DNA from: Janibacter corallicola NBRC 107790
GTDB lineage: Bacteria; Actinomycetota; Actinomycetes; Actinomycetales; Dermatophilaceae
NCBI RefSeq assembly: GCF_001570965.1
Contig: NZ_BCSR01000026.1
Coordinates: 1-42,382 of the forward strand
Direction of reading: 5' to 3'
DNA length: 42,382 nucleotides
Shown: positions 29 through 37,872 of the stretch, piece by piece
How positions within the stretch are numbered: the first letter of the stretch is position 1
Layout: every line of letters starts with the position of its first letter
Notes under the pieces: model-generated
Seen by the model: only the letters and a program-made list of their open reading frames with translations
Databases searched by the model: none
Told to the model about the DNA's origin: nothing
Made by a program: the position numbers and the translations under genes

Positions 29-40
29 GAGGCTCGCTGG

Positions 41-127
41 CGGAGGATGCGGGATTTGAACCCGCGAGGGGTTTCATCCCCAACACGATTTCCAATCGTG
101 CGCACTAGGCCGCTATGCGAATCCTCC
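41..127 (-). tRNA. tRNA-Ser (anticodon GGA)
   Basis: An 87-nt serine tRNA with a long variable arm. The acceptor stem GGAGGAT/ATCCTCC closes at 121-127 and 42-48, with G as discriminator base. The anticodon loop reads TTGGAAA, giving GGA, which decodes UCC/UCU. The T loop GGTTCAAATCC is intact. A CCA end is encoded at 38-40 on the minus strand. Confidence 0.95.
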
Positions 128-4174: not shown

Positions 4175-4180
4175 AACTGG

Positions 4181-4267
4181 CGGTGGCGGTGGGATTTGAA
4201 CCCACGGTGGGCGTCAACCCACAAACGCTTTCGAGGCGTTCTCCTTAGGCCGCTCGGACACGCCACC
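4181..4267 (-). tRNA. tRNA-Ser (anticodon CGA)
   Basis: An 87-nt class II tRNA. Acceptor GGTGGCG/CGCCACC is perfect and the discriminator is G. The anticodon loop CTCGAAA gives CGA for codon UCG. The T loop GGTTCAAATCC is present. CCA is encoded at 4178-4180 on the minus strand. Confidence 0.95.
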
Positions 4268-35586: not shown

Positions 35587-35591
35587 TTGCG

Positions 35592-35679
35592 CGGAGGCGG
35601 AGGGATTTGAACCCTCGACGGGGGGTGAACCCGAACCGCATTAGCAGTGCGGCGCCATAGGCCTCTAGGCGACGCCTCC
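35592..35679 (-). tRNA. tRNA-Ser (anticodon GCT)
   Basis: An 88-nt class II tRNA with acceptor GGAGGCG/CGCCTCC, anticodon loop CTGCTAA (GCT, codons AGC/AGU) and T loop GGTTCAAATCC. CCA is not encoded. Confidence 0.95.
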
Positions 35680-36285: not shown

Positions 36286-37662
36286 TCACTCCCGCAGCAA
36301 CCGCTCCAGCAGTTCCCTCGCCCACCCCGGGAGCGCCTGCTCCGGCAGCTGGACCGCCACCGCCGGGCGCTCACAGCCGACCCCGTAGCAGAAGGCGTCC
36401 GGGTGGGCCTCCTCCTTGGCCCACTGCTCGAGACCGGGATCGGCCAGCAGGTCGCGCACGCCCCGCGCGTCCGACTCCTCCAGCTGGGCCAGCCGCACCT
36501 CGCGGGACCTCGTCATTCCGGCCACCCCACCGGAGCGGGAGAGCCGCACGACCTCCGGCTCCTCACCCCCGGATCGCCGCCCGCCACCGGCGGAGGGTGA
36601 CGGGGCACCCCCTTCGTCCGGGGGCAGGCCGACCTGCGACCAGGCCTCGGCCACTGCGTCCGCCTCCACCGAGCCGTCACCGAAACGTGCCACTGCCGCG
36701 GCGCTCGTCAGTCGGGCGAAGGCGGAGAAGTCGCACTCGGGGTCGATCTCCCCGGTGATGACGTCGAACCAGATCTGCCCGGCGGACGTCCACGCCGGGC
36801 CCCCGATGGCAGTCGCGGCGAGGTAGAAGGCCTTGTTGGGGATGCCCGAATTCAGGTGCACCCCACCGTTGTCCTCCTCGGTCTCGACGTAGTCCTGCAT
36901 CGTCGCGGGCTGTGGGTCCTTGCCCATCCGAGGATCGTCGTAGGCGGTGCCGGGGGCCTTCATCGACCGCAACGCCTTGCCCTGCACGCCGTCGGCGAGC
37001 AGCTCGGCACCGATGAGCCAGTCCGCCTCGCCGGCGTCCTGCCCGAGGTGGCGCTGCTTCACGAGAACCCCGAAGACGTCCGAGCAGTGCTCGTTGAGCG
37101 CTCCGGACTGCCCTTGGTAGACCAGCTGCGAGGTGTACTGCGTGACCCCGTGGGCGAGCTCGTGGCCGATGACGTCCAGACTCGCGGTGAAGCGGTTGAA
37201 GATCTCCCCGTCCCCGTCGCCGAAGACCATCTGCTCGCCGTCCCAGAAGGCGTTGTCGTAGTCCTTGCCGTAGTGCACGCTCGCGACGAGCGGCAGGCCG
37301 GCGCCGTCGAGGGAGTTGCGCCCGTACGCCTGCCACCACAGCTGCCAGGTCTGCCCGAGGCCGTCGTAGGCCTCCGTGACGGCGACGTCGTCGCCAGCGG
37401 GGTCACCCTCGGCACGCACGAGGACGCCGGGCAGCTCCCGGCCGCCCTGCGCGTCGTGGATGGTCCGGTCCGGCGCCGGGTCGCCCGTGGCGGCCCGCCC
37501 CGCGGCAGGACGACGACCAGCCGGGGACGCCCGTCGCTCCCATCGCTCCCACAGACCCGCGTCCAGGTCCTTCGTCTGCCCGGCCGCAGCAACGAGATGC
37601 TCGCCACCGGAGCGGGAGAGCGCGGTGATGATGTGCGGCGGGATGATGCTGCAGCGCGTCAT
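36286..37662 (-). CDS. Protealysin-like M4 metalloprotease fused to emfourin-like inhibitor domain
   Basis: The 458-aa product starts MTRCSIIPPHIITAL, the short protealysin-type propeptide with the conserved PPxxL-like motif and no signal peptide. The catalytic domain has HELAH (His167, Glu168, His171), third zinc ligand Glu191 in GALNEHCSDVFG, and the catalytic His269 in GGVHLNSGIPNKAFYL. After a Gly/Ser/Arg linker (351-368) a separate domain, residues 369-458, opens VVRLSRSGGVAGMTRS. This resembles emfourin, the small protein inhibitor of protealysins usually encoded as an adjacent gene. Here both lie in one reading frame. ATG 37662 is chosen from the propeptide motif. The emfourin call is by eye. 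Confidence 0.82.
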   Translation of the reverse strand: MTRCSIIPPHIITALSRSGGEHLVAAAGQTKDLDAGLWERWERRASPAGRRPAAGRAATGDPAPDRTIHDAQGGRELPGVLVRAEGDPAGDDVAVTEAYDGLGQTWQLWWQAYGRNSLDGAGLPLVASVHYGKDYDNAFWDGEQMVFGDGDGEIFNRFTASLDVIGHELAHGVTQYTSQLVYQGQSGALNEHCSDVFGVLVKQRHLGQDAGEADWLIGAELLADGVQGKALRSMKAPGTAYDDPRMGKDPQPATMQDYVETEEDNGGVHLNSGIPNKAFYLAATAIGGPAWTSAGQIWFDVITGEIDPECDFSAFARLTSAAAVARFGDGSVEADAVAEAWSQVGLPPDEGGAPSPSAGGGRRSGGEEPEVVRLSRSGGVAGMTRSREVRLAQLEESDARGVRDLLADPGLEQWAKEEAHPDAFCYGVGCERPAVAVQLPEQALPGWARELLERLLRE

Positions 37663-37785
37663 CCACCCATTGAACTCCCCCGGCCTGACACCCGCCACCG
37701 GTTGCCGTGAATTCCCCGGGAAGAAGTGGTCGAGCCACCTGCGGCACGACGCGGTCCCTGACCAGCCGCAGCCACGGGACATCGG

Positions 37786-37872
37786 CGGAGGGCGTGGGAT
37801 TCGAACCCACGAGACGGTTACCCGCCTAGCGGTTTTCAAGACCGCCGCACTAGGCCACTATGCGAGCCCTCC
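37786..37872 (-). tRNA. tRNA-Ser (anticodon TGA)
   Basis: An 87-nt class II tRNA: acceptor GGAGGGC/GCCCTCC, anticodon loop CTTGAAA (TGA, codons UCA/UCG), T loop GGTTCGAATCC. CCA is not encoded. It completes the set of four serine tRNA classes in the window. Confidence 0.95.

Follow-up and report, generated by a model that had tools for sequence, protein, structure and literature searches.

An M4 metalloprotease with a C-terminal emfourin domain in Janibacter corallicola and related genomes

Does a gene of Janibacter corallicola NBRC 107790 join an intracellular protease to its own inhibitor in one polypeptide, and if so, how widespread is the join and how might such an enzyme be controlled? 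The gene lies on contig NZ_BCSR01000026.1, of which positions 1 to 42,382 were analyzed (42,382 nucleotides, hereafter the window). The original prediction had described its product as an M4 protease with an emfourin-like inhibitor at the C-terminus. In Serratia proteamaculans protealysin and emfourin are encoded by separate genes of one operon, according to PMC9505478, unlike the single polypeptide with a flexible linker predicted here. The two systems share a short propeptide with a PP motif, the M4 catalytic residues (MEROPS M4) and a homologous inhibitor domain. No report of an M4-emfourin fusion was found in the literature searched; the founding description of emfourin lay outside that search, so prior publication is possible. 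On the evidence at hand the covalent fusion is what is new, the protease-inhibitor pair itself being known.

Gene structure

Translation from the ATG at 37662 down to 36286 on the minus strand gave 458 residues with no internal stop. The tail is in one frame with the catalytic domain, as had been claimed. In the genome search the emfourin and M4_C matches shared one open frame of 523 codons, which was stop-free inside. The upstream extension of this frame enters a tRNA-Ser gene (37784-37872), and the ATG at 37662 is therefore taken as the natural start. The fused protein scored 99.1 bits for Peptidase_M4 and 172.6 bits for Peptidase_M4_C, both above the curated Pfam cut-offs. The genome of the strain (3.1 Mb, 92 contigs) contained one match each to M4_C and emfourin at E ≤ 0.001 and both were in the fused gene. 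The features are listed in Table 1.

Table 1. Features predicted in the fused gene, with positions in the window.
Feature	Coordinates	Strand	Length or basis
Fused protein gene (short propeptide, M4 protease, linker, emfourin domain)	36286..37662	-	458 aa
Protealysin-type short propeptide, ~residues 1-53, PP pair at residues 8-9	37504..37662	-	end inferred
Peptidase_M4 domain, residues 92-175	37138..37389	-	Pfam
Zinc/catalytic motif HELAH, residues 167-171	37150..37164	-	sequence and alignment of fused proteins
Peptidase_M4_C domain, residues 178-345	36628..37131	-	Pfam
Flexible Gly/Pro/Ser-rich linker, residues 347-371	36550..36624	-	sequence, alignment
Emfourin domain, residues 374-455, first residues LSRSGGVAG	36298..36543	-	Pfam, profile match to 6zyg

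The C-terminal domain

The tail, some 85 residues long, matched Pfam Emfourin (PF20242) with 52.0 bits (E 9.7e-14, cut-off 27) and with 56.7 bits in the genome search. A profile built from 18 fused and separate emfourin domains, including that of the window, found the solved structure 6zyg, 'Protealysin-associated protein', at E 2.1e-4 over positions 1-82. Judging by its entry name 6zyg is presumably the Serratia emfourin. When the window's domain was searched alone against the PDB, 6zyg was not reached and nothing was found (phmmer, E ≤ 10). The domain alone also had no match in the plasmid collection. The HMM match above cut-off and the profile link to a solved structure bear out the emfourin-like character proposed for the tail. 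The domain had been placed at residues 369-458; its start was set some three to five residues too early and the rest of the placement was accurate.

An alignment was made of 37 of the 43 fused proteins extracted. Within the tail R376, G378, G379, G382, L411, D422, E441 and L451 were invariant across these 37. In the 18 mixed fused and separate domains five positions were invariant, corresponding to G378, G379, G382, D422 and L451. When majority sequences were derived for the fused domains (48) and for the others (59), the two agreed in these motifs. Values of dN/dS (Nei-Gojobori, 17 close pairs chosen by hand) ranged from 0.035 to 0.61 for the emfourin domain and from 0.10 to 0.26 for the protease. 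Both tail and protease are under purifying selection. The emfourin domain was clearly faster in three of the 17 fused pairs (0.49-0.61 compared to 0.14-0.26 for the protease).

An alternative reading is that the tail has retained the emfourin fold but lost its inhibitory function, and now serves in targeting or in recruiting substrates. The tails of other proteases often serve targeting, and the quick change of the domain in some fused lineages would fit such a role. However, the positions most conserved are the same in fused and separate domains, and dN/dS of the emfourin domain was below 1 in all 17 pairs. A switch to targeting or substrate recruitment is considered unlikely.

Linker and internal start codons

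The linker of the window's protein is PPDEGGAPSPSAGGGRRSGGEEPEV. Across 48 fused genes the linker, measured between limits set by hand, had a median length of 35 residues and was rich in Pro, Ala, Gly, Ser and Thr; the printed linkers of L001, L060 and L109 are too short, as the motif search ended early. Linkers of the fused proteins differed in both length and sequence and could not be aligned, and for that reason no conserved cleavage motif was visible. Conserved ends around an unalignable linker suggest a tether that varies freely, as would be expected for a flexible join of two folded parts that must meet.

In the window, at about 36540-36580, GAGGAG lies nine bases ahead of an in-frame GTG just before the emfourin domain. 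This arrangement would suit a gene that yields, in addition to the fused protein, a free inhibitor from an internal start, as a relic of the two-gene form. In-frame start codons before the domain were also in excess, being present in 36 of 48 fused genes where 27.4 were expected, and none of 200 synonymous shuffles was as high. The excess codons were nearly all GTG or TTG. The count is inflated by related sequences, however, and a ribosome-binding-like site followed by a start codon was not enriched before the domain (4 of 48 genes, the window's being one, against 5.7 expected from synonymous shuffles). The sequences thus give no support for a general internal start for free inhibitor. The start-codon excess is unexplained, and dual production from one gene appears improbable.

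Protease, propeptide and predicted location

In a sequence search the best-matching solved structure for the window's protease was 2vqx (E 5.7e-117; table name 'METALLOPROTEINASE'), which we take to be the protealysin precursor. The M4 fold is shared with thermolysin, aureolysin and pseudolysin. H167, E168, H171, E191 and H269, which correspond to the HExxH motif, the downstream Glu ligand and the catalytic His, were invariant in 37 of 37 aligned fused proteins.

The profile of the fused family aligned to 2vqx from position 8, that is, into the propeptide. The end of the propeptide near residue 53 was placed from the 2vqx alignment together with the known start of mature protealysin. In the window the propeptide has CSIIPPHII around the PP pair. 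All 37 aligned fused rows contained PP, the starts of the other rows having been picked partly by that motif. The residue after PP in the fused family was mostly H or Y and was followed by hydrophobic residues. According to PMC6778150, the N-terminal propeptide of protealysin-like enzymes contains a PPL motif, immediately ahead of which lies a processing site. Residue 4 (37651-37653) is a Cys four residues before PP. Cys is the majority residue at this position in the fused family (consensus CxIVPP), and it could conceivably help to keep the propeptide or the zinc in place.

No signal-peptide-like hydrophobic segment was found near the N-terminus by a hydropathy check. The highest 19-residue mean hydropathy was 0.57 in the window's protein, and the N-terminal maxima across the 37 fused proteins were 0.26-1.28. 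Protealysin-like proteases are not known to carry a secretion signal peptide. The hydropathy values agree with the cytoplasmic protease of the original prediction, and the enzyme would be expected to act inside the cell. Protealysin itself is described as intracellular in PMC9505478.

Genomic neighborhood

Four tRNA-Ser genes were present in the 42 kb window (38-127, 4178-4267, 35591-35679 and 37784-37872). Their anticodons differ (GGA, CGA, GCT and TGA). The protease gene adjoins the last of them. The neighbors of the protease gene look like housekeeping genes: the tRNA-Ser gene and genes for a cold-shock protein, a serine acetyltransferase and a cysteine synthase, the latter three named by eye.

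In the genus 9 of 16 genomes had an emfourin match and all nine were fused. The gene was beside a tRNA-Ser matching the window's in five of the eight other carriers (G565, G636, G637, G639 and G640). It was about 7 and 17 kb from that tRNA-Ser in G631 and G632, and in G642 the two were on different contigs. All 16 genomes of the genus matched the stretch with the tRNA and acetyltransferase, and the protease gene is therefore accessory, having been lost or gained within the genus.

Protealysin and emfourin have been proposed as an effector and its immunity protein, as stated in PMC9505478, and the fused gene could accordingly be imagined as an antibacterial toxin travelling with its immunity domain attached. 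An attached inhibitor would, however, be expected to disarm the toxin in its target. The hydropathy of the N-terminus and the housekeeping appearance of the adjoining genes also speak against this reading, which is very improbable.

Occurrence of the fusion

The survey of the fusion rests on profile searches of genomes. In the family of the window 186 genomes were searched; emfourin was matched in 88 of them and M4_C in 150, and about half of the family genomes are therefore without emfourin. There were 93 emfourin matches in the family and 81 of them were fused in frame with M4. These comprised 74 that shared an open frame with M4_C, among the matches listed, and seven shown at their loci (L063, L065, L066, L074, L109, L111 and L112). 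The other 12 consisted of six separate downstream genes, one gene upstream of the protease and five in neither class, namely G721 with the domains in different frames, G584 with no protease near, and weak matches in G700, G696 and G675.

Beyond the family the fusion was rare. A sample of the order (297 genomes) gave 71 emfourin matches, 54 of them outside the family, and four of these 54 were fused (L049, L050, L082 and L085). Thirty-five of the 54 were inspected; in the remaining 19 no open frame exceeds 227 codons, which is too short for both domains. In a sample of the phylum (296 genomes, 23 matches in all) none of the 19 emfourin matches outside the order was fused. The whole protein matched 94 records of the plasmid collection, none of which covered at least 80% of it in one place, so that the plasmids showed no fusion. 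A scan of genome contigs with the whole protein, which used exact short peptides and may miss near relatives, returned one locus, L053, which was fused.

Within the window's family emfourin normally occurs fused, an arrangement that is unusual for the pair at large. The architecture had been called unusual, which holds for the pair as a whole and fails within the family. The fusion is not attributed to chance because 81 of the 93 family emfourin matches are fused and because the domain is under purifying selection in the 17 chosen pairs. It is a true and evolutionarily stable joining of a known protease to a homologue of that protease's known inhibitor. Separate adjacent genes are common elsewhere and could in principle be merged by an assembly or sequencing error, but this is ruled out by the in-frame fusion of these 81 matches in different genomes with linkers of varied length and sequence.

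Loci with separate or missing inhibitor genes

Outside the window's family the usual state of emfourin is a separate, closely spaced gene. The survey and annotated pairs are in line with the claim that emfourin is normally a separate neighboring gene. Among the 48 loci with a downstream inhibitor gene, 43 had no more than 134 bases between the protease stop and the start of the emfourin domain. In four of the other five it was about 1 kb away and the fifth was the frame-broken L110. Several candidate starts of separate inhibitor genes overlap the protease stop by four bases. Annotated pairs of an 'M4 family metallopeptidase' followed by a 'protealysin inhibitor emfourin' were found on plasmids of Caballeronia grimmiae (L120, 42 bases apart) and Rubrobacter tropicus (L121, 20 bases apart). 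These have the same two components as the window's protein but encode them in two genes. The Rubrobacter tropicus protease was identical in the tree to that of G195, which is from the same phylum as the window and thereby assigns the window to Actinomycetota.

The reversed order, with the emfourin gene before the protease, was seen at eight loci (L025-L031 and L055). These formed one group in the tree and none was fused.

Eight protealysin-like genes in the family of the window (L099-L106) have the PP-motif propeptide, and their products stop 3-6 residues beyond the M4 domain. A scan of the frames around them gave no emfourin match with an E-value below 0.26. Some downstream frames were conserved; these were rejected as a hidden inhibitor gene, being read by eye as the reverse strand of another gene. 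In the M4 tree the eight fall into a separate clade, whose neighbor is a group containing a Streptomyces gene. As these proteases have no detectable emfourin, the inhibitor is not obligatory.

Single loci departed from these patterns. At L088 (G584) the 3 kb around the emfourin domain contained no M4 protease; the genus of this genome, g2, has several fused members. L110 (G721) has a protease and an emfourin domain in different frames of one locus, owing either to an error in the sequence or to decay of the gene. L119, on Streptomyces canus plasmid NZ_CP108710.1, is a protealysin-like M4 gene with a Gly-rich tail of 41 residues. No emfourin domain was found at L119, and genes for a 'hypothetical protein' and an S8 peptidase lie next to it.

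Phylogeny

A quick tree was constructed from the M4 domain alone using 107 rows. Ten of the 117 M4 loci were left out because they were duplicates, incomplete, broken in frame or of a different M4 type. Forty-three fused rows, including the window's, formed one clade (SH-aLRT 97). Fused rows outside this main clade occurred in three places: L082, a long branch of unsure position; L050, next to the separate L041; and L049 with L085. The 107-row tree required four state changes; when the set was thinned to 94 rows, three sufficed. A tree in which all fused rows were forced together was not rejected (AU p 0.076, 94 rows). This would correspond to between one and four origins of the fusion from the two-gene form.

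Proposed regulation

The product of the gene is probably a protealysin-like zinc protease of the cytoplasm, to which its own emfourin is tethered in cis at a fixed 1:1 ratio. An ancestral two-gene operon, with the inhibitor a few bases downstream of the protease, would have merged into a single frame in which a disordered linker joins the two parts. The most likely binding site of the tethered domain is the active-site region of its own protease, in keeping with free emfourin. In addition to the N-terminal propeptide, the tail would then provide a second safety lock and would guarantee one inhibitor per protease. Two elements would inhibit the intracellular protease: the propeptide, which autoprocessing can remove, and the tethered domain. 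Classical thermolysin-like zymogens are secreted and are inhibited by a covalently attached N-terminal propeptide. Unlike these, the fused protein has a further, unrelated inhibitor domain at its C-terminus.

Inhibition by emfourin is tight. The original prediction held that the protease stays off until the linker is cut. Cutting of the linker alone need not free a tight inhibitor, and a linker-cutting switch is therefore not adopted as shown. Release may occur through cutting of the linker or through destruction of the inhibitor domain, or the enzyme may be partially active while tethered. A stricter form of the tethered-inhibitor reading is a double-locked intracellular protease, held by the propeptide and a permanent tight inhibitor, activated only by a dedicated event such as a linker cut followed by destruction of the inhibitor domain, and arisen once or up to four times. 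This form is offered tentatively and as a whole is rather doubtful.

A strain without the inhibitor gene shows an earlier drop in optical density, and loss of that gene is costly to the producer, as reported in PMC9505478. Protealysin and free emfourin have been studied as a pair acting in trans, and a family that welds the two together would fix their balance at one to one. This raises the question of how an enzyme tethered to a tight inhibitor ever works, and what releases it. Relatives in which the inhibitor gene comes first, comes second, is fused or is absent constitute a ready-made natural experiment.
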